Shown piece by piece: positions 4,322-59,762 of a stretch of DNA of 59,762 bases (positions are counted from its first letter, which is position 1; the number at the start of each line of letters is the position of its first letter). Source of the stretch: Gammaproteobacteria bacterium (GTDB taxonomy: Bacteria > Pseudomonadota > Gammaproteobacteria > Eutrophobiales > Eutrophobiaceae); the NCBI GenBank assembly GCA_030835405.1, contig JAURPG010000032.1, positions 1 to 59,762 of the forward strand. The letters are read 5' to 3'. The notes under the pieces are model-generated. The model was not told the DNA's origin and ran no database searches. It worked only from the letters and a program-made list of their open reading frames with translations. The position numbers and the translations under genes are program-made.

Positions 4322-5301
4322 GCTGCCAGGCTCACCTCTAACCGGGAATTTATGAAGTCCCTGACCATTGCAATTTGCAACTCCGCATCACTTATTCGAC
4401 ATATCCTGATACGGAAACTTTCAAATTCCGGAAATTTAACACAGTATTTATAAATATGTTTGCGCGCGATCCTCACTCCCAGATAGTCACCATAATGTTT
4501 ATGTATTTCCCGCAAATGCCATTCCACAACATTTGCGATTTCATGCAAATCTGGGGCTTGTGGTTCTATGCCGGTGGCCAGAAAATTTCTTATTTGCCTG
4601 AACAGCCATGGATTGCCCATGCTGGCCCGGCCTATCATGACGCCATCTGCACCGGTATCATTCAGGACAGTCTGCACATCTTCAACAGATCTTATATCAC
4701 CGTTGGCAATCACCTGTATGCCAACACTGGCCTTAACCTCAGCTACGGTATGGTGTTCAACATCACCACTAAAACCACAGGCCCGGGTCCGGCCATGAAC
4801 AGTTAATCTTGCAATACCACAATCCTCGGCTATTTTTGCAATTTTCACGGCATTTTTTGAGGTTTTGTCCCACCCGGTACGGATTTTCAGGGTCACGGGA
4901 ACCGTGGCGGCCTTGACCACAGAACGAAGTATATTTTCCACCAGCCCGGGGTCTCTAAGCAAGGAAGACCCTGCCATCACGTGACAAACTTTTTTTGCCG
5001 GACAACCCATATTTATATCAATAACGTCAGCACCATTTTCAATATTCAACACCGCAGCCTCAGCCATCCTGGTCGGGTCTGCACCTGCGATTTGAACGAT
5101 CACCGGGGACTCTTCATCAGCCAGGTCACGTCTGAATTTTGATTTACTTGATCTATATAGATTAACATCAGATGAAATCATCTCTGAGACACAGGCATGC
5201 GCACCCATGCGTCTACACAAGCGCCTGAATGGCTTGTCAGTAATGCCGGCCATAGGCGCAAGCATAATAACTTTTTCTTTTGAATCAGACCTGATGATCA
5301 T
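4318..5301 (-). CDS. dusB: tRNA-dihydrouridine synthase B
   Basis: This FMN- and NADPH-dependent enzyme reduces uridine to dihydrouridine in the D-loop of tRNA. The protein has 327 residues. MLAPMAGITDKPFRRLCRRMGA opens the TIM barrel, and INMGCPAKKVC carries the catalytic Cys at about residue 100. TVHGRTRACGFSGDV and IANGDI are phosphate- and flavin-binding segments. It is the first gene of the dusB-fis unit, with a 334-base gene-free stretch upstream. The assignment to DusB rather than DusA or DusC rests on these motifs and on the linked fis. Confidence 0.96.
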   Translation of the reverse strand: MIIRSDSKEKVIMLAPMAGITDKPFRRLCRRMGAHACVSEMISSDVNLYRSSKSKFRRDLADEESPVIVQIAGADPTRMAEAAVLNIENGADVIDINMGCPAKKVCHVMAGSSLLRDPGLVENILRSVVKAATVPVTLKIRTGWDKTSKNAVKIAKIAEDCGIARLTVHGRTRACGFSGDVEHHTVAEVKASVGIQVIANGDIRSVEDVQTVLNDTGADGVMIGRASMGNPWLFRQIRNFLATGIEPQAPDLHEIANVVEWHLREIHKHYGDYLGVRIARKHIYKYCVKFPEFESFRIRICRISDAELQIAMVRDFINSRLEVSLAA

Positions 5302-5635
5302 CCTTGTACCGCTTATTATTTTTTTAAATCGGGGCGGTTTAACGTAGAGTCCTAATCATATCGAGGATTATGATTATTGGAAAGTACTACCTGAATAAAT
5401 CTTCAGTAAAAATTTCTTTGCAAGTTACAGTGTTGTTCTAATTCTCTATACAGGTATCGACGTTAAGCTATTCATTGAGTTGCAAATTCTCATATGCGTG
5501 TTCTGCTGAAAATGGGGATAACTTGAACAGGTTTTTACCTGGGTCTCTAATATTCCGCAACATTAATCATGTTCAGTATCAAATCCTGCTGGTATGTACC
5601 GGTGGTACAGGATATTCAGTTAATTCAGGAATGGT
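5302..5635 (-). promoter_or_regulatory. Gene-free stretch holding the likely dusB-fis promoter and a dyad
   Basis: No credible gene lies in these 334 bases. The most visible structure is an 8-base perfect dyad, TAATCATA at 5353-5360 with TATGATTA at 5369-5376, centred about 64 bases upstream of the dusB start. Between the dyad and dusB, the minus strand holds a G/C-rich patch (CCGCCCCG) followed by A-rich DNA. That would suit a G/C-rich discriminator, but no convincing -35/-10 pair could be fixed. The part nearest 5635 is the 3' flank of the zinc-ribbon gene and shows no strong terminator. Confidence 0.35.
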
Positions 5636-6514
5636 TCAAATAAAATTAAACTCGAAACTCACAGCAGCACTTGTACTGCCAGTTAGTTCAAGAATAATAT
5701 GAACCGGGATTTTAACAGGCATACCATCTTCAATAATTATGGATTGATCAAGATATTCAAGTGGTTTGAATATTCGATATCCGGTCACCTGTCCTTCAGT
5801 ATTATACAACGTCAACCTGAGGTCCGGATAAGGTTGTATTATCTCAGACTGGTTTTCCATCGTAGCATTAACCAGAAGGGTATCCGCATACCTTGGGTGA
5901 TCTCTCACATCTCTATTTAACAGGACAATTGACTGGATATCTCTGGCCCTGACCAATTCACATTCAAACCGTTCACAAACCTTACGGGCGTAGGGTAGAT
6001 ATTCCGGATAGGCAGAGAGTATCCGATCCCTGTTAAACCATACCAGCTGGGTGGTTGCCACAATAAACAGGAGCGTGACGGCAATAAACCAGAAAAATAT
6101 TTTCCACCTGGACGGCTGTGACTCATGGGTTCCCAGGATTTCATGGGCACGTTCATCATCTGCCAACATAGTATCCTGTTGTTCAGAAAAGTAAGTTTCT
6201 GACGACTCATTATCTATTGCATTGTCACCAGGTTCATCCTGCTCCAAAGCGGGTTCAGAAACATCCGGATCATACTGAACACCATCGCTATTCCCTTCGG
6301 CACCGGGAATATCAAACTGTGGTTCTTCAAGCTCGCCATCCAGGGCTGCGATATCTTCTAAATCTTGTTTTGTTGCTATGGGCAAGTCATGTAATCTTTC
6401 AAGGGCATTAAATTGTTCTCCACAAAACCCGCACTGAACGGTCCCCTTTGCGGCTGATAGCTGCCATGCATAGATACGAAACTGGCGAGAACAGGATGGG
6501 CAATCTGTAATCAT
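5636..6514 (-). CDS. Zinc-ribbon and DUF3426 domain membrane protein
   Basis: The function is unknown. An N-terminal zinc ribbon of the MJ0042 type has the pairs C5-P-S-C8 and C28-G-F-C31. An acidic, low-complexity stretch (about 55-125) follows, then one membrane helix (about 137-160, WKIFFWFIAVTLLF onwards), then a C-terminal DUF3426-like domain. The ribbon would face the cytoplasm and the C-terminal domain the periplasm. It starts 10 bases after prmA ends, so it is probably the last gene of the aroQ-accB-accC-prmA operon. Proteins of this kind often sit next to prmA in gammaproteobacteria, but no role is established. Confidence 0.85.
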   Translation of the reverse strand: MITDCPSCSRQFRIYAWQLSAAKGTVQCGFCGEQFNALERLHDLPIATKQDLEDIAALDGELEEPQFDIPGAEGNSDGVQYDPDVSEPALEQDEPGDNAIDNESSETYFSEQQDTMLADDERAHEILGTHESQPSRWKIFFWFIAVTLLFIVATTQLVWFNRDRILSAYPEYLPYARKVCERFECELVRARDIQSIVLLNRDVRDHPRYADTLLVNATMENQSEIIQPYPDLRLTLYNTEGQVTGYRIFKPLEYLDQSIIIEDGMPVKIPVHIILELTGSTSAAVSFEFNFI

Positions 6515-6523
6515 GAAATGAGA

Positions 6524-7414
6524 TTATAACAAATCCATTTTTTTGACACCTGTTAACATGGCCCATTCATTCTTGAATACTGGATCAGACATATCAAACC
6601 AGTCTGAATAACATCCAAGGCAATCGTCAACCTGGTTGGCTAGCAATCCAGACAAAACGATCCTGCCGTCATTTACCAGATAACTATTAAAACGACCCGC
6701 AAGCAACAGCAAAGGCTCAAGCAGGATGTTGGCAATAAGGATGTCTGCAGAATGTTTACCGGGGTTGCCTTGCTTTAAAATAAAGAATTTGTCCTGGACT
6801 TCATTTTTTTCTGCGTTGGCAATAGATGCAGTGACTGCCTGGGGATCAATATCGATACCGGTTACTGATTTTGCCCCTAATTTTGCCGCTGTAATTCCCA
6901 AAATACCTGAACCACACCCATAATCAATCACACGTTTAAGCTTGGGCGGGTTATCTACCAGCCATTCAAGGCACAATGATGTGGTTTCATGGGTGCCGGT
7001 TCCGAAGGCCAGCCCGGGGTCCAGTTTAACCAGGCAGGCAATCCCCTCAGGCGCCTCAGTCCAGCTCGGGCATACACAAAGTGTATCTTTAATAGTGACC
7101 GGCCCAAACCCGGCCTTAAACGCACCCTCCCAGTCTTCATCCTTTAATAAGTCCAGCTGATAACCCAGAATATTCTGGGTTCCGATCCTGTTTCGAACAC
7201 AGGCCATCAGAATGTCCATATCGATATCCGGGTCCAGTAATGCAGTTAAATTGGTAATTTTCCAATATTGCTGAACGGCTGTAGGATCATCAAACACTGC
7301 CTCAGGGGAACCCGGGGTATAGCTGATAGATGCCGCAGAGAAACTTTCCAGTAACCCCCTCAGGTCGTCAAGATACTCCTGTGGGCATGAGATACTCAGC
7401 CTTAACCATGTCAT
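6524..7414 (-). CDS. prmA: Ribosomal protein L11 methyltransferase
   Basis: PrmA trimethylates several amino groups of ribosomal protein L11 using S-adenosylmethionine. The protein has 296 residues, the usual length. The N-terminal substrate-recognition domain begins MTWLRLSISCPQEYLDDL. The C-terminal methyltransferase domain has LDPGLAFGTGTHETT, the SAM motif VIDYGCGSGILGI, and DILIANILLEPL. The gene lies downstream of accC after a gap of about 70 bases, a widely conserved neighbourhood. Confidence 0.97.
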   Translation of the reverse strand: MTWLRLSISCPQEYLDDLRGLLESFSAASISYTPGSPEAVFDDPTAVQQYWKITNLTALLDPDIDMDILMACVRNRIGTQNILGYQLDLLKDEDWEGAFKAGFGPVTIKDTLCVCPSWTEAPEGIACLVKLDPGLAFGTGTHETTSLCLEWLVDNPPKLKRVIDYGCGSGILGITAAKLGAKSVTGIDIDPQAVTASIANAEKNEVQDKFFILKQGNPGKHSADILIANILLEPLLLLAGRFNSYLVNDGRIVLSGLLANQVDDCLGCYSDWFDMSDPVFKNEWAMLTGVKKMDLL

Positions 7415-7481
7415 TATATGGTCCCGGCCTGGATTAAAGTTGTCATGAACTAGAACTTGTCAGTAGTACAACAATATGGGA

Positions 7482-8825
7482 TTACTTTAAGCCCATTTTC
7501 TTTTCGAGATAATGAATGTTAGTGCCACCATTAATGAATGCAGCATCATCCATAAGCTTTCTATGCAAGGGGATATTGGTTTTTATACCATCGATAACAA
7601 TCTCTGATAATGCCATGGACATTCGCTTAATAGCCAGCTCACGGGTCTCGCCATGGGCGATTAGCTTCCCGATCAGGGAGTCATAATGGGGAGGTATCGC
7701 ATATCCCTGGTATACATGGGTATCCACCCTGATGCCTGGACCACCGGGAGGGTGGTAATGGGTAATGGTGCCAGGGGATGGCATGAAGCTCTCCGGGTCT
7801 TCTGCATTGATCCTGCATTCAATGGCATGTCCATTAAGATGGATTTCAGACTGACGATAGGACAACTTTTCACCGGCGGCAATACGTAGTTGTTCCTTAA
7901 CGATATCCACACCGGTAATACATTCAGTTATCGGATGTTCAACCTGTACTCTGGTATTCATTTCTATAAAATAAAATTCGCCATCTTCATATAAAAATTC
8001 GAATGTGCCGGCATTCACATAACCTATTTTTCTACAGGCATCGGCACATAGTTCTCCCACCTTTCTTTTTATGCGGTCTTTAATATGTGGGGCCGGGGCC
8101 TCTTCTAATATTTTTTGATTCCGCCTTTGCATGGAACAGTCTCTTTCTCCCAGGTGTATCACATTTCCATGGGTATCCGCCAGAACCTGTATCTCAATAT
8201 GCCTGGGGTTCTCCAGGTACTTTTCCATATAAATCGTATCGTCATTAAATGCCGCAAGAGATTCAGAGCGGGTCAGGGATACCGCATTACGCAAGGTCGC
8301 TTCACTATGGACCACACGCATTCCCCTGCCTCCTCCTCCACCCGATGCCTTGATAATGACCGGGTAACCAATATCTTTGGCGATCTTTGACACTTCGGTC
8401 ATATCATCAGTCAATGGACCGTCAGAGCCCGGCACGCATGGGACACCGCTTTCCTGCATGGCTGAGCGTGCGGATATCTTGCTTCCCATCAACCGTATGG
8501 TTTCTGACCTGGGACCGATAAACGTGAAGCCGCTTTGCTCAACCCGCTCTGCAAAATCCGGGTTTTCCGACAAGAATCCATAACCGGGATGAATTCCAAC
8601 CGCATCTGTCACCTCGGCAGCACTAATTACTGAAGGGATATTCATATAACTTTCTACCGAAGCCGCAGGACCGATACAGACAGCCTCATCAGCTAGCAAT
8701 ACATGCTTTTGACTTCTGTCCGCCTCAGAAAATACTGCAACAGTCTTAATACCCAGCTCATGGCAGGCACGTAACACCCTGAGTGCGATTTCACCGCGGT
8801 TTGCTATGACAACTTTTTCAAGCAT
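7482..8825 (-). CDS. accC: Acetyl-CoA carboxylase, biotin carboxylase subunit
   Basis: AccC uses ATP and bicarbonate to carboxylate the biotin on AccB, the first half of the committed step of fatty acid synthesis. The 447 residues are typical. [20 protein letters not shown], the glycine-rich ATP-grasp loop [23 protein letters not shown], and [22 protein letters not shown] are all present. It lies 45 bases downstream of accB, as in E. coli, and the two are almost certainly co-transcribed. Confidence 0.98.
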
Positions 8826-8870
8826 TTATAAACACACTGATCTTAGGCTTGGCGATTGGGCAATGGATAA

Positions 8871-9344
8871 TCAGGCTTCACGAACCTGAAAAAGCGGTTG
8901 GCCATATTCAACCGGATCACCATTCTCCACCATGACGCGACTGATGACGCCATTTGCATCAGATTCAATCTGGTTCATTATCTTCATTGCTTCAATAATG
9001 CAGACCACGTCTCCTACTTTTATAGGTTTACCATGCTCAGTAAATGGGGGTTTATCTGGTGCCGATGAACTGTAAAAGATACCCACCATGGGCGCTATGA
9101 TGTAATGACCGAGGTCTTCCTTGGGAGCTTCTGCCTGGGCTGGATTTGTGGATTGGCCTGCTGGCGCAGATACCGTTTCCTGCCGGACATCATTAGAGGG
9201 GACATGGACGACTGTTTGTGGATGCTCTGCATAGCTACTATGCCTGCTGATTCGAACCGATTCTTCGCCCTCATGAATTTCAATTTCTGAAACCTTGGAT
9301 TCCTCCAGCATTTCGATGAGCTTCTTAACCTTACGAATATCCAT
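8871..9344 (-). CDS. accB: Acetyl-CoA carboxylase, biotin carboxyl carrier protein
   Basis: AccB carries the biotin that shuttles CO2 between AccC and the carboxyltransferase. The protein has 157 residues. It has a short N-terminal helical region (1-25), a Pro/Ala/Gln-rich linker (about 50-78), and a biotinyl domain. Lys121 in IIEAMKIMNQIESD is the expected biotinylation site. The usual EAMKM motif is EAMKI here, a conservative change. The thumb segment (YSSSAPDKPPF) is present, as in bacterial AccB. Only one base separates it from the end of aroQ. Confidence 0.97.
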   Translation of the reverse strand: MDIRKVKKLIEMLEESKVSEIEIHEGEESVRISRHSSYAEHPQTVVHVPSNDVRQETVSAPAGQSTNPAQAEAPKEDLGHYIIAPMVGIFYSSSAPDKPPFTEHGKPIKVGDVVCIIEAMKIMNQIESDANGVISRVMVENGDPVEYGQPLFQVREA

Positions 9345-9345
9345 A

Positions 9346-9792
9346 TTATTGCCCCTGTTTTAATTTTTCATCGATTGCGCTGAGTGCATATATATAGCCC
9401 TGTGCCCCAAGCCCACTGATGACACCAATGGCCCGGTCAGATAAATAAGAATGCTGTCTGAATGCTTCTCTGGCAAATACGTTAGAGAGGTGTACCTCAA
9501 TAAACGGGATATCCACGCCCAGCAGGGCATCACGCAACGCAATACTGGTGTGAGTAAAGGCGCCGGGGTTAATGATGATATGGCTTACCCCTTGATCTCG
9601 CGCGAGATGGATCCTGTCAATAATCTCATGCTCGGCATTACTCTGATAATGTTCCAGTCCGTGGCCAAGTTTTTTTGCTTCTGTCACCAGCATTCGCTGG
9701 ATATCGTCCAGCGTGGTAGTACCATACACCTCAGGCTCCCGGGTCCCCAGTAGATTCAAATTTGGACCATTAATAACCAGAATTGATGCCAT
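9346..9792 (-). CDS. aroQ: Type II 3-dehydroquinate dehydratase
   Basis: AroQ dehydrates 3-dehydroquinate to 3-dehydroshikimate in the shikimate pathway; the type II enzyme is a dodecamer. The chosen start gives 148 residues beginning [20 protein letters not shown], the standard N-terminus with the catalytic loop. [14 protein letters not shown] and [19 protein letters not shown] contain the catalytic His and substrate-binding residues. The frame could begin nine codons earlier at 9819, but that ATG has no ribosome-binding site while 9792 is preceded by GAGGGG. It heads the aroQ-accB-accC-prmA operon. Confidence 0.95.
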
Positions 9793-9923
9793 TTTCCCCT
9801 CAAATTCGGCAAAAGCCATTATTATTAGAATGTATTAAAAAAATGAAAATAGATACTTATATATGCATTTTAGCGGAATTTAGACGAATATTCGAGTTTT
9901 TTTCGATGCAGGATCTAATTTGT

Positions 9924-10502
9924 TTACATTAAAAGATCGGCGATTAGATCTTCCACTTCAGAACGGCTAATGGGTCCGGCCTTGGTAAATACCACTATAC
10001 CATCACGGTCAATAATAGCAGTATAAGGAAGTGCCCCAATATGGTTGCCATAACTTTCGGCAATAACAATGACTTCCGCTTCACCTGCCAATACGGGGTA
10101 TGTCATATTATGTTCAGATACAAAGCCGGTTACTTCTTCTGGCTTTTGCAACGCAATTCCCACTACCTGTAGGCCTTGTTGCCCATAATCATCTTGCAGG
10201 GTGAGTAATTCCGGGATTTCAGTCAGACACGGTAGACACCAGGTGGCCCAGAAATTTACCAGCACCACCTTGCCATTCCACTCTGTAATTGAACGCGGTT
10301 GCCCGTGTATGTCCGGCAAGGAAAAATCAGGACGGTAAGTTCCTTCTATACTCTCAAATAGATCTTGTGTCTGGATATTCAGACTGTCAGCCTGTGGGGC
10401 ATCCGGGCCTGTTTCATCAGTGCTTAGTAGCGTGATACCCAGACCGATAATTAACAAGACCACGCCTGTGATAATGAATACACGGGGAAGGGGTAATGTC
10501 AT
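9924..10502 (-). CDS. TlpA/ResA-type membrane-anchored thiol-disulfide oxidoreductase
   Basis: This is a thioredoxin-fold protein held in the inner membrane with its active site in the periplasm. The 192 residues comprise one N-terminal membrane helix (about 8-27) and an AhpC/TSA-redoxin-like domain. The active site is WATWCLPC (Cys89, Cys92), and the cis-proline region GALPYTAIIDRDG is present. Its ATG overlaps the dsbD stop (ATGA). This suggests that DsbD supplies its electrons, as for CcmG- or TlpA-like reductases. The actual client (cytochrome c maturation, a peroxidase or other) is not visible, so no symbol is assigned. Confidence 0.92.
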   Translation of the reverse strand: MTLPLPRVFIITGVVLLIIGLGITLLSTDETGPDAPQADSLNIQTQDLFESIEGTYRPDFSLPDIHGQPRSITEWNGKVVLVNFWATWCLPCLTEIPELLTLQDDYGQQGLQVVGIALQKPEEVTGFVSEHNMTYPVLAGEAEVIVIAESYGNHIGALPYTAIIDRDGIVVFTKAGPISRSEVEDLIADLLM

Positions 10503-12379
10503 ATGGAAGTTTGTGTTGCTCGTACTACATGGTCTGAAAAATCATCTGCGTCAAAATATCCATATAGTCGGTATGCATTACGTTCCTTACCATCACTGCC
10601 AAAGAACATAATGGCAGGCGGACCGTAGATATTGAAATGCTTCAGTAACGCCTTATCTTCTTCATCATGCGCAGTGACATCTGCCTGTAATAAAACTACC
10701 CCTGCCAGGGCCTGTTTCACCTGGGGTTGAGGAAAGGTGTTCTCTTCCATTCGGATACATTCAATACACCAGTCAGCATAGAAGTCCAGCATAACGGGCC
10801 TGCCCTGCATACTGGCCTGTTGTAATTGACTATTGAGATCGGTAACGGTTTTGATCCTGATAAACGTCAGGCCCTCGTGGTCCTGTAAAGTTGTGCCGTT
10901 GCCAACGATGCCTGCCAGGGGACGGTAAATACTTTTTCCACCAGACGACGCGCCTATCACCAGGAGCGCCCCATACAGAAGCATAATCAGACCGGCACCT
11001 TTCCATAGACGACGCCATCGATCCTGGCTATCCAGCTGATCCAATGCCCCCATATAAATAGCAGTAATAATAAATAACGCCCCCCAGAGATACAGTTCAA
11101 CGGCAGGAGACACCACCCTGGCAAGAAACCAGATTGCCAATCCAATCAATGCCACACCAAAAATTTGTTTTACTATCTCCATCCAGGGACCTGCCCTGGG
11201 TAGTATTGAGCCGGCAGAGCCACCAATCACCAGGAGTGGCACACCCATTCCCATGCCCATGGAAAATAGTGCCATGCCGCCGAGGACTTCATCACCGGTC
11301 TGGGAGATATAGGTCAATGCCCCAACCAATGGCGGCGCGACACAGGGACCAACGATTATGGCTGAAACCGCGCCCATGATTGCTACACCGGACAATGTTC
11401 CGCCCTGCTGGCTATTACTCAGTTGAGTGAGTTTATGCTGCAGTGCTGAAGGCATCTGTATCTCATAAAACCCGAACATTGACAGGGCCAAAGCCAATAA
11501 CACCAGACAAAGCGCGGATATGATCCATGGGTCCTGAGCCGCCGCCTGAATATTTATCCCTGCCAATGCCGCGATCACCCCAACCACAGCATAGGTCAAG
11601 GCCATGGACAATACATACACCAGCGAAAGGGTAAAGCCTTTGCCGGGAGTCAGGGTCTTTTCCTGGCCGGCTATGATGCCGGACAGGATTGGGATCATGG
11701 GAAACACACAGGGTGTCATGGAGAGCAGTAAACCTGCGCCAAAAAACATCGCCAGATTCAGGAGAATCCCGCCGCTGACAAGTCGTTGGGTAATACTATC
11801 CTGTTCCGACACTATTCCGTTGCCAGGTAGATTACTGGCGCCCTGATCTGTTGTTTGCGCAGTTACGGATGAGGTACTGGTTATCGCTGTCTCAGGTAAT
11901 AATAATGTTGCCGTTTTTTTGATGGGCGGATAACACAAAGATTCATCCTTACAACCCTGGTAACCATATTGAAATGTAATCTCGGTCTCTTCCCTTGTCT
12001 CACGAACCACAGGGACCTGGATGTCAAAGACACCGATATTGACCTCAACATTTCCAAATGAAGGGTCTTGTTTAATCTTGCCATCCGGGATTGTAACAGC
12101 CTGTTTATCTATGCTGTCTGTCCCTTCAATTATTTCAAAGTTAAACTTGTCATGATAAAGGTAATAACCTTCAGCAACGATTACATTGACGTTGATGCTG
12201 TCTGCAGCGGTAACTACAGGTGTTAATAAAAATGCCTGATCAGGGTGGAGAAACTCCTGCTCCGCAGACCGGTTGAGAAAACCACCAATACTTTGCAGGC
12301 GCTCACTGACCGTCTGCGCCCATGAAGGTATTGACAGGGAAACCAGCAAGAAAAACAGGATGAAATTATGCCAAATCAT
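10499..12379 (-). CDS. dsbD: Thiol:disulfide interchange protein DsbD
   Basis: DsbD moves electrons from cytoplasmic thioredoxin across the inner membrane to periplasmic partners. All three parts are visible in 626 residues. A signal peptide precedes the N-terminal domain with CKDESLCYPP. The eight-helix membrane domain has its cysteines in MTPCVFPMIPIL and IVGPCVAPPLVGAL. The C-terminal thioredoxin-like domain has DWCIEC. The reading frame can be extended to a TTG at 12418 inside cutA, but the ATG at 12379 directly precedes a normal signal peptide and is preferred. It sits between cutA and the TlpA-like gene, an arrangement seen in E. coli (cutA-dsbD). Confidence 0.96.
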   Translation of the reverse strand: MIWHNFILFFLLVSLSIPSWAQTVSERLQSIGGFLNRSAEQEFLHPDQAFLLTPVVTAADSINVNVIVAEGYYLYHDKFNFEIIEGTDSIDKQAVTIPDGKIKQDPSFGNVEVNIGVFDIQVPVVRETREETEITFQYGYQGCKDESLCYPPIKKTATLLLPETAITSTSSVTAQTTDQGASNLPGNGIVSEQDSITQRLVSGGILLNLAMFFGAGLLLSMTPCVFPMIPILSGIIAGQEKTLTPGKGFTLSLVYVLSMALTYAVVGVIAALAGINIQAAAQDPWIISALCLVLLALALSMFGFYEIQMPSALQHKLTQLSNSQQGGTLSGVAIMGAVSAIIVGPCVAPPLVGALTYISQTGDEVLGGMALFSMGMGMGVPLLVIGGSAGSILPRAGPWMEIVKQIFGVALIGLAIWFLARVVSPAVELYLWGALFIITAIYMGALDQLDSQDRWRRLWKGAGLIMLLYGALLVIGASSGGKSIYRPLAGIVGNGTTLQDHEGLTFIRIKTVTDLNSQLQQASMQGRPVMLDFYADWCIECIRMEENTFPQPQVKQALAGVVLLQADVTAHDEEDKALLKHFNIYGPPAIMFFGSDGKERNAYRLYGYFDADDFSDHVVRATQTSI

Positions 12380-36159: not shown

Positions 36160-37077
36160 TTATTGGACCGAAAGATTCAGGGAGACGGGCCGGCCATTTC
36201 TCAACACACTCAGCTGGAATGATTTTGATGTTCTTAGCCTACGATATGCATTTAAGGCATCTTCAGCACTCTTCACCGAACGGCCATTGACAGAATGGAT
36301 AATATCGTCTTTTTGTATACCCAGATCCTCAAAAATACTTCCTGATGCTATTTCTACGACTTTAAACCCCATGTTCTCACCGTTTTGTGTATGTGGCACC
36401 GCCTTCGCCTGACGCAACAGGGCCGGCAGATTATTCAACTGCTGCCGCAATGTCTGTTGAGACATGACTCGCTGAGTATCGTTGATCTTCCTGATACCAT
36501 TTTTTTCTGAAACACGCATATCAACGGAACCAGCCTTGTTTTGGTCAGCGCTAAGCTTTGGAATGGATAAATATAACGCCTCATCCCTACCATTGTGGTT
36601 TAATACCACCCTGCCAGGTTCTATCCTGACAATCCTGGCGCCTTCTATCTCTTCACCTATTGCATAGACCTTTTCAACACTACCCGGTATCGCAATCAAC
36701 GCCAGGCGTTGATTTGATTCACGATTAACCATGATGCCGCGCAAGATTAAATTCAGACTGGTCTCTTGCAACTGGGTAGTTAACTCTCTGGTTTCGGCGA
36801 GGCCTGGTTCAGGGACGCCAAACAATGCCATCATCCCGGGTGGAGGTTGAGTGACGATGCCAGATGAAGCTTGCGCATTGCTTACAACTGCGTCATCGGT
36901 TTCTATCTGCTGCCGATATTGAGAAGAAGACGTGGAAAACGCAATATAATCGGTAATCATTTTGCCTGTAATAATGGCCAAAATGACTAACAATAATACC
37001 TCCACAGCCCTGACAAACCGAGGCTGTGTCAGCAAATCAGATTGCAACCCGCTGACGATATTCGAAAATCTTTCCAT
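36160..37077 (-). CDS. gspC: Type II secretion protein C
   Basis: GspC connects the inner-membrane platform to the secretin N0 domain. The 305 residues have one membrane helix (about 24-44), a linker, the HR domain (about 105-180, LNLILRGIMVNRESNQRLALIAIPG) and a C-terminal PDZ domain (about 215-305). The PDZ domain contains GFKVVEIASGSIFEDLGIQKDDIIHSVNG. It is the first gene of the operon. A terminator after pstS lies upstream, so this operon needs its own promoter in the intervening 150 or so bases. Confidence 0.95.
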   Translation of the reverse strand: MERFSNIVSGLQSDLLTQPRFVRAVEVLLLVILAIITGKMITDYIAFSTSSSQYRQQIETDDAVVSNAQASSGIVTQPPPGMMALFGVPEPGLAETRELTTQLQETSLNLILRGIMVNRESNQRLALIAIPGSVEKVYAIGEEIEGARIVRIEPGRVVLNHNGRDEALYLSIPKLSADQNKAGSVDMRVSEKNGIRKINDTQRVMSQQTLRQQLNNLPALLRQAKAVPHTQNGENMGFKVVEIASGSIFEDLGIQKDDIIHSVNGRSVKSAEDALNAYRRLRTSKSFQLSVLRNGRPVSLNLSVQ

Positions 37078-57606: not shown

Positions 57607-58491
57607 ATGCCTGTTCTTATATTTGCCCTGGTCTTCATTGCAGCATTATTTACCGGTGCTGTATTGTCCTATCCATTATATATAGCCATTAGGCTGGTTT
57701 TTGATGTTGATTTTGCAGATATCATCATTCTATCAACTCAACTGGCGGGGTTTGTTGGCAGTCTGTTGTATCTGAAATATTCTGATGGACTCAGCCTTTA
57801 TAACCTCGGTTTGCGCGCAACAACAGACAATATTAAACGTGATAGCTTTATCATGTTTGGCCTTGGTTTTCTTATTGTGGTTTTGCTCGGTGGATCACTT
57901 TATCTTGTTGGCGTCTATAACATTCACAGCCAAAGGGATTTTGTTCTCACCGCATTACCAACACTGGTCGTCAGTGCCATCGCTACCGGTATCGTTGTAG
58001 CAACGTTTGAAGAGACCATCTTCCGGGGGGGGTTGTTACGGGGACTGGATAGGCAATCTTCTGCGCCCCTGGCAGTGATCATCACCAGCCTGGTATATGC
58101 CTGGGTGCATTTTATACGGTTTGATGTCCCTCCCGGACCCGATAATATCGATCTATTCACAGCCCCGGTAAATTTTCTTAATGCCTATACTGTACTGTTT
58201 TCAACTCAAAAAATAGATGCCTTTATCTCACTTTTCATACTGGGCCTGCTACTGGGAATGATGCGCATTAAGGAAAAAAGTATTATCAATTGCATTGCCT
58301 TGCATGCAGGTCTGGTGGCAGGGATAAAAATTTTCAGGTACCTGCTGGAATATCAACCCGGCAATCAGTTTCAGTTTCTTGTCAGCCAGCATGATTACCG
58401 GCTGGGGTTTATGGCAACGGTGTGGTTGTTTATGGCGACGCTGATTTATTACTTCTTCGCCTACAGAGGCCCGAAAGCAGGGAGTAGTTGA
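57607..58491 (+). CDS. CPBP family membrane protease (CAAX prenyl protease-like)
   Basis: This is a membrane metalloprotease-like protein of 294 residues with about eight hydrophobic segments. The CPBP signature is present: EETIFRGGLLRGL (Glu-Glu and Arg), a His in YAWVHFIRF, and IALHAGLVAGIKIF. Substrates are unknown; bacterial members include self-immunity and anchoring proteins, but no bacteriocin gene is near. It follows the BepA-like gene after about 75 bases and ends 12 bases before a large inverted repeat. Confidence 0.9.
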   Translation: MPVLIFALVFIAALFTGAVLSYPLYIAIRLVFDVDFADIIILSTQLAGFVGSLLYLKYSDGLSLYNLGLRATTDNIKRDSFIMFGLGFLIVVLLGGSLYLVGVYNIHSQRDFVLTALPTLVVSAIATGIVVATFEETIFRGGLLRGLDRQSSAPLAVIITSLVYAWVHFIRFDVPPGPDNIDLFTAPVNFLNAYTVLFSTQKIDAFISLFILGLLLGMMRIKEKSIINCIALHAGLVAGIKIFRYLLEYQPGNQFQFLVSQHDYRLGFMATVWLFMATLIYYFFAYRGPKAGSS

Positions 58492-58503
58492 TGCAATGTA
58501 ATA

Positions 58504-58793
58504 GACAGGATTATCAGGATTTATTCAGGATGAACAGGATAAGTTTAGATAATTCGTACATCTATGTCGTATACACCATAGATATTCATTTGGATCATAA
58601 TATTGATAACTTATATGATAGACATGAATTATGAGTAAACATGATTGTGTGATATTTCCTAAATAAGATATTAGATTAATCGTATTTATTATTAATGAGG
58701 ATGCTCGCCATTCAATCAGAGCATCTTAATAGTGCATTCTAAATTAATTTTTTTATGTCCTGTTCATCCTGAATAAATCCTGATAATCCTGTC
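58504..58793. repeat. Non-coding element bounded by a 36-base perfect inverted repeat
   Basis: The arms (58504-58539 and 58758-58793) are perfect reverse complements of 36 bases and frame 218 bases of A/T-rich DNA. Each arm holds the unit CAGGAT or its near copies four times, spaced 9, 11 and 9 bases. Internally are two small hairpins: TCTATG 58561-58566 with CATAGA 58577-58582, and GATGCTC 58700-58706 with GAGCATC 58719-58725. The element lies exactly between two convergent genes, 12 bases from one stop and 9 from the other. No gene, tRNA or terminal duplication was recognised. It fills the only gene-free stretch of this size at the right end. Confidence 0.75.
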
Positions 58794-58802
58794 CATTGTT
58801 TT

Positions 58803-59762
58803 TTAATTTTGTACTGCATCCTCATTCGCATTTTCCGGCCACGGTGATTCAAGAAACTCCGCTGGCGCATCGACCGGGCTCGTCAAGGTATGCAAAAACG
58901 CTTCCAGTGACTGCATCTCCTCTTCGGTTAAATCTAACATGGCAAGCTCGGAATGACCTCGCACTGCAAGTGGCGCCTCATTGTAGTGTCGGATCGCTTC
59001 TGTCAAATTCGGCACCTGGCCTGAATGCATAAACGGCGCGGTCTCTCCAACATTACGTAAAGTAGGTGTCTTAAACGCTGCGATTATTTCCTGACCCTCT
59101 GTTCTTGCGTATAACAGATGGTTACAGTGCTCCGTACTTGCATCACTATATTGCCCCTGGCAATTAAACGGATCTTCTTTTACCTCTAACACACCTTCAA
59201 TTCGACCAAAATCAGGGGGGAGATCCGTCGCCGGTGGAATGCCGGTATTATGAAAAGAGTTATTGGTGAACAGTGGGCCATTATGACAATTGATACATTG
59301 GGCCTTGCCAATAAACAATTTCAGCCCCAGGGCCTCGCGATCAGCAAGTAACTCTTCCTGCCTCTGCCGGTTGTTAGATTGAACCGCTTGCACATAGGCA
59401 TCAAATCTCGATGATCCGGGCAGGATTAATCTTTCGTATGCCGCTATAGATTTTCCCATGTTCACAAAGATTTGGTTGATTAGGTCCTGATCTTCCGGAT
59501 CCATGGCGCCCCAGGCAGAACTTGCCACAGGGTCTGGCACCGGTCCAGCAGAAGGTGGGAATCGAGAAGTGTCTGATATATCCGGCATTTCACCAAACAA
59601 TGCCTCGTATTGACCAAGGTAATTGGTATCATTGGCAATGATATGAGCATAGAAAGTACGGTTTGCGCCATGCTCTACCGGACTCTCCATTGGTCCCAGG
59701 GCCTGAGACCAGAGGCTGTCCTTACGCCCGTCCCAAAACAACCAGGGGCTATAAGCCATGCC
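58803..59762 (-). CDS. Di-haem cytochrome c peroxidase / MauG family protein (C-terminal part)
   Basis: Periplasmic enzymes of this group reduce hydrogen peroxide or act on protein substrates with two c-type haems. The frame runs off the right edge of the window, leaving about 319 residues. One haem site, CINCH, is visible in AQCINCHNGPLFTNNSFHNTG. The distal family segments YSPWLFWDGRKDSLWSQALGPMESPVEH and HSGQVPNLTEAIRHYNEAP are also present. The first CxxCH and the signal peptide must lie beyond the edge. Peroxidase or MauG-like use cannot be told from this part. Confidence 0.9.
   Translation of the reverse strand, partial: GMAYSPWLFWDGRKDSLWSQALGPMESPVEHGANRTFYAHIIANDTNYLGQYEALFGEMPDISDTSRFPPSAGPVPDPVASSAWGAMDPEDQDLINQIFVNMGKSIAAYERLILPGSSRFDAYVQAVQSNNRQRQEELLADREALGLKLFIGKAQCINCHNGPLFTNNSFHNTGIPPATDLPPDFGRIEGVLEVKEDPFNCQGQYSDASTEHCNHLLYARTEGQEIIAAFKTPTLRNVGETAPFMHSGQVPNLTEAIRHYNEAPLAVRGHSELAMLDLTEEEMQSLEAFLHTLTSPVDAPAEFLESPWPENANEDAVQN

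Follow-up and report, generated by a model that had tools for sequence, protein, structure and literature searches.

What is the inverted repeat that lies between two convergent genes at 58504-58793, and how might it have come to be there? A repeat search of the window (the whole stretch of 59,762 nt that was analyzed, from a gammaproteobacterial genome) identified two 40-nt arms, 58500-58539 and 58758-58797, which are 98% complementary and have 218 nt between them. Inside these arms lies a perfect 36-nt core (58504-58539 and 58758-58793), with coordinates exactly as given in the first-pass annotation, and the one mismatch is near the outer end, which reads AATAGAC on the left and AATGGAC on the right. 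Four CAGGAT units had been ascribed to each arm. The left arm (AATAGACAGGATTATCAGGATTTATTCAGGATGAACAGGAT; 58500-58540 as a feature, + strand) does contain four, with spacings of 9/11/9, whereas the right arm (58758-58797, - strand), an inverted copy identical at 39/40 positions, has three full units plus CAGGA. The interior (58541-58757, no strand) is AT-rich and without a long ORF, and no match to it was found elsewhere in the genome. The gene at 57607-58491 (+ strand), whose product we take from its own sequence to be a CPBP-type membrane protein, has its stop codon 8 nt outside the left arm; the gene at 58803-59762 (- strand), which extends past the contig end and presumably, again from its own sequence, encodes a di-haem cytochrome c peroxidase/MauG-like protein, has its stop codon 6 nt outside the right arm. 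The arms thus nearly touch both stop codons, as had been remarked. The predicted fold of the inverted repeat is -113.9 kcal/mol (z = -11.5 versus dinucleotide shuffles), and the motif RGACAGGATTNACAGGAT occurs 159 times in the genome at ≤3 mismatches, versus 10 times for a reversed-pattern control; the inverted repeat is therefore not a product of chance.

The genome-wide search for the arm suggested by the first-pass annotation returned many copies instead of a single one: about 60 match RGACAGGATTNACAGGAT at 0-1 mismatch, mostly as inward-facing inverted pairs 55-300 nt apart with unrelated AT-rich interiors, and several contain a nested second arm pair. Arms matching RGACAGGATTNACANGAT at ≤1 mismatch number 75 in this genome (G000), 31 in the sister genome G002, and 0-1 in three other genus members. 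The genes beside the copies that we checked are housekeeping genes (hemE, gltBD, thiG, trmB, pepP, and ubiH). By gap type, 41 arm clusters are divided into about 21 convergent, 18 tandem, and 2 divergent ones, numbers that are approximate since genes were called simply as longest ORFs; with the same gene calls, element ends in this genome are usually 10-30 nt from gene ends. The outer flanks are A-rich, reading T-rich outward. In both species, the elements are heavily concentrated in a single part of the chromosome (G002:C1:1565001-1620000; contigs C89 and C95 of this genome). A lone CAGGATTGTCAGGAT pair without an inverted partner is located at 36623-36637 of the window.

A bidirectional terminator, or an mRNA 3'-end hairpin between convergent genes, would be in keeping with the strong predicted fold, the enrichment at gene ends, and the outward T-rich flanks. 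However, the loops of such hairpins would span 50-250 nt (218 nt in the window copy), elements are also found within operon-like tandem junctions such as pepP-ubiH, there is no Rfam match, and complementarity between the two arms of an element does not exceed that of arms paired at random. Left/right arm similarity was 14.48 versus 14.27 for shuffled pairs among the elements of this genome, and 18.08 versus 18.15 among the cross-phylum elements. Because two arms from one element resemble each other no more closely than arms taken from different elements, it is the sequence, and not base-pairing, that appears to be kept. The missing covariation speaks against an RNA hairpin function, as far as sequence comparison can tell, and we consider the terminator reading unlikely. 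The double hairpin that had been suggested is not supported as the selected feature, for the same reason. Arm covariation was also sought as a sign of RNA or cruciform selection, and none was found.

The same arms occur far beyond this genus. An exact 30-nt arm pattern was found at no fewer than 120 places in species-representative genomes, with hosts among the Chloroflexi, Planctomycetes, Acidobacteria, Bacteroidetes, Sumerlaeota, several proteobacterial groups, and the archaeon Methanoperedens. A strict arm match was obtained in only this genome and one other among 398 genomes sampled across the phylum; taken together with the exact 30-mers in other phyla, this indicates a family that is sparse but very wide. 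Across phyla, neighboring arms within 600 nt of each other are in +/- order in 68 of 86 cases, and the outer ends of the elements read AATRGAC...GTCYATT, with a total length of mostly 70-110 bp. Each arm consists of CAGGAT units arrayed at intervals of 9-11 nt (9 nt in 688 cross-phylum spacings) with the outer boundary AATRGAC, and the window arms match this consensus in their units, 9/11/9 phasing, and boundary. In one arm pair (L167, 459 nt), no gene was found inside.

Some members of the family have a gene. In three cross-phylum loci, a CAGGAT hairpin is adjoined by a gene of the GxxExxY family (TIGR04256, PF13366), and in seven loci (L261, L264, L265, L266, L270, L272, and L276) an intact GxxExxY gene lies exactly between a + arm and a - arm. 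The seven genomes represent six lineages: Sumerlaeota, Candidatus Muproteobacteria, Bacteroidetes, Acidobacteria, Sulfuricaulis, and a betaproteobacterium. These gene-bearing elements are about 500 bp in all and have the same arms, inward orientation, and outer boundary as the gene-less ones. PF13366 was detected in 32/35 CAGGAT-bearing genomes outside the genus of the window versus 63/398 genomes of the phylum, a co-occurrence that is confounded by phylogeny because the CAGGAT-bearing genomes are mostly from environmental lineages in which GxxExxY is common. The nuclease gene is also present in Thioalkalivibrio denitrificans, an isolate rich in CAGGAT repeats. A PF13366 search of this genome and of G002 found no GxxExxY gene, no GxxExxY remnant was found inside the elements of this genome, and none was detectable in the window interior (58541-58757). 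With no such gene between its arms, the window copy is non-autonomous at most. We consider it probable that it belongs to a dispersed inverted-repeat family whose gene-bearing members carry only GxxExxY between the same CAGGAT arms. Plasmids and phages were considered as main carriers and rejected, as genes for distant GxxExxY relatives are limited to 8 plasmid records and 2 phage records, and only three viral contigs hold the arm. On one contig classed as viral (L329, IMG/VR contig 3300029267_003210), five CAGGAT arms in a single orientation occur at 5049-11004.

Comparison of related sites is consistent with gain and loss of these elements. Two loci, L139 and L276, correspond to a single site, as their flanks are shared. 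Between the arms, the gene is intact in L276, but in L139 a stretch of 177 bp holds the arms and just a short fragment from the 3' part of the gene. Judging from the two sequences, this internal deletion is a route by which gene-less copies can arise. At the pepP-ubiH junction, the spacer is an element of 170 nt in this genome and G002, is 19 nt in G003, and in most other family members is a short gap or an 11-nt overlap, a distribution from which the insertion is read as the derived state. Two sister species (G001 and G004) have unrelated inserts of 252 and 163 nt at this junction (L311 and L312), which may thus be an insertion hot spot or a tolerant site. L250 and L192 likewise differ in a GxxExxY element with a different type of arm: L250 has it and L192 does not, between two adjacent genes that we take from their sequences to be trpE/trpG-like. 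The miniature mobile element of the first-pass annotation is supported by dozens of dispersed copies, their patchy occurrence within the genus, the occupied and empty site, and a longer, gene-bearing version with the same arms.

An ordinary MITE family of a DDE-type insertion sequence, with the CAGGAT arrays as terminal inverted repeats, would also give dispersed, intergenic elements with inverted ends, a defined boundary, and short non-coding interiors, a likeness that extends to known MITEs such as Correia/NEMIS. Several findings count against it: no excess of flank direct repeats was detected that would indicate a target-site duplication (k = 2-8; 32 elements of this genome and 103 cross-phylum elements), interiors of different copies share no sequence, and the gene between the same arms in the seven genomes is a PD-(D/E)XK nuclease gene. 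The gene-bearing copies that were found have GxxExxY alone, with no DDE parent among them. We regard a MITE origin as quite improbable.

The protein encoded between the arms exceeds the curated cut-offs of both TIGR04256 and PF13366 (PDDEXK_3) by a wide margin, with a Pfam PF13366 match at E 2e-43. E27, D66, E76, K78, Q90, and Y94 are invariant in 40 GxxExxY sequences (D66, E76-x-K78, Q90xxxY94), and the AF2 model (pLDDT 95.8) has as its best match SSO0001 (Cas4), with a Z of 10.0 over 94 residues. These data place GxxExxY among the PD-(D/E)XK proteins: its catalytic residues are invariant, and its predicted fold resembles that of Cas4. A PDB sequence search with the GxxExxY profile gave no match. 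The TIGR04256 and PF13366 entries describe the protein family only, whereas here the gene is also bracketed by repeats. In the open-access literature, we found no paper tying GxxExxY, TIGR04256, or PDDEXK_3 to flanking repeats, and a search of open-access literature by repeat strings yielded no description of the repeat.

The association between gene and repeat is not limited to CAGGAT arms. Among 60 GxxExxY genes picked regardless of their flanks, 54 are flanked by significant inverted repeats of 8-10-nt phased units, versus 10/449 control segments or ORFs (6/222 and 4/227) in the same test; four further GxxExxY genes in the window's own family are flanked likewise, by inspection (4/4). The unit types around these genes are CAGGAT, CRCRGAT-NAA, CGCCGAT, CGCAAAT, and CRCRRAG, all except CAGGAT having been assigned by eye. 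In a tree of 62 proteins, arm type follows clade. The AG label requires 5 changes versus a shuffled mean of 20.7, and the CAGGAT label 3 versus 9.4, with 0/500 shuffles as low in either case, values to be read with a tree of only 117 columns whose main split is starred and with near-copies that inflate the shuffle tests. One supported clade consists of eight CAGGAT proteins from several phyla. Around the GLLESAYE clade of GxxExxY, arms of the CRCRRAG type (CACAGAG, CGCAAAG, and CACGAAG) make up a sister class of larger size. The phased units, the sequence kept without pair covariation, and the arm type that tracks the GxxExxY protein make it likely, on sequence grounds, that the arms themselves are binding arrays. 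The original interpretation of the locus is thus partly supported: in its mobile element part and probably, for the arms, in its binding array part.

The nearest analog is the REP/BIME-type repeat mobilized by RAYT, a Y1 tyrosine transposase. In REP/RAYT systems, the enzyme gene is bounded by inverted repeats, repeat pairs without the gene enclose unrelated segments, and the type of repeat corresponds to the type of enzyme (PMC2817692). The elements studied here follow the same logic: a small enzyme gene between two inverted short repeats, many dispersed and extragenic gene-less pairs, repeat type tracking enzyme type, and gene remnants caught between repeats. They differ in that the enzyme is of another nuclease superfamily (PD-(D/E)XK, Cas4/RecB-like, instead of HUH/Y1), in that the arms are arrays of 8-10-nt phased units and not a stem-loop, with no left-right compensatory changes, and in their spread over several bacterial phyla and an archaeon. 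The Y1 transposase (PF01797) is absent from this genome, with a sub-threshold match only in G002; RAYT/Y1 was thus ruled out as the partner, and the REP reading is largely refuted for the CAGGAT family. As neither a Y1 transposase nor a compensated palindrome is found, the family falls outside the REP systems, although its way of working appears to be similar, and we hold membership in the REP class to be most improbable. The window copy is best read as a gene-less relic of a REP/RAYT-like element with an unrelated enzyme.

Conservation of the arms counts against reading them as a mere mobile relic. At sites shared by this genome and G002, arms are identical at 23-28/30 nt (77-93%), versus 26-40% at fourfold-degenerate sites (pepP, hemE, gltD, gltB, and thiG), which are saturated; the arms are thus conserved beyond neutral expectation, which a dead parasite would not need. 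The arms may instead be host-maintained (domesticated) protein-binding arrays at gene ends, serving, e.g., nucleoid organization or gene-end insulation, with a real mobile ancestry. The 9-11-nt phasing, the sequence kept without left-right covariation, and the near avoidance of divergent (promoter) gaps would fit this, and its weight is sizeable because the arms are conserved in two genomes that both lack GxxExxY. However, three other members of the genus share the core genes and lack the arrays, which are hence not essential, no reader protein was identified, and the cross-phylum distribution tracks no host clade. We hold a host function to be a real but tentative alternative. Arm conservation without GxxExxY could be caused by either a host role, homogenization or re-insertion, or a nuclease that was present until recently.

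If the family is mobile as we propose, movement would be brought about by the nuclease. GxxExxY protomers may bind the CAGGAT units at both ends, which recur about once per helical turn, as would be expected for an array of protein sites on one face of the DNA. The nuclease would then nick or cut at both arm arrays, after which the segment bounded by the arms may be copied elsewhere by host repair or replication, with a preference for gene ends. In this genome, the copies would have been spread by a matching GxxExxY that is no longer present, or that acted in trans before its loss, and the arms may since have been kept by constraint or homogenization. With nuclease-driven selfish genes such as homing endonucleases and R2, the proposed elements would share a site-specific nuclease as the motor of spread, and the R2 endonuclease has a PD-(D/E)XK fold; unlike those systems, the elements described here have no intron, intein, or reverse transcriptase and occur as many dispersed, non-allelic copies with inverted ends. 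We lean towards the view that GxxExxY and its phased-unit inverted repeats constitute a class of mobile element in prokaryotes that has not been described before, with a stand-alone PD-(D/E)XK nuclease as its engine and without a transposase, recombinase, or reverse transcriptase. On this view, its gene-less copies would make up a considerable fraction of the intergenic repeats of the CAGGAT, CACAGAG, CGCAAAG, and CACGAAG types that are so far unexplained in environmental bacteria and some archaea. This would provide a candidate enzyme for a large set of orphan intergenic repeats in many phyla, a candidate role for TIGR04256/PF13366, a family with a motif name only, and a counterpart to REP/RAYT that is independent of it and uses an unrelated enzyme. 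The long-standing question of how such repeats spread is thereby made testable with one protein of roughly 130 residues and one 40-bp DNA.

At the window locus itself, the CPBP-type gene has an orthologue in 4/4 genus relatives, and a search of the genome contigs with the neighboring CPBP protein found nothing. In G002, the gene pair is kept and the arms are missing, with a different repeat in their place, and the window site thus has no clean empty counterpart there. A second dispersed repeat family, GTCATTCCCGCG...CGGGAATGAC and GTCATGCCGGGC...CCCGGCATCCAG, is found inside several CAGGAT elements and at this G002 counterpart (L037:3906-4167, L037:6525-6753, L049:10886-11225, and L109:1050-1300). 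At its 3' end, the CPBP gene of G002 also has a tandem repeat of the heptamer gaggagt (L109:1430-1500).
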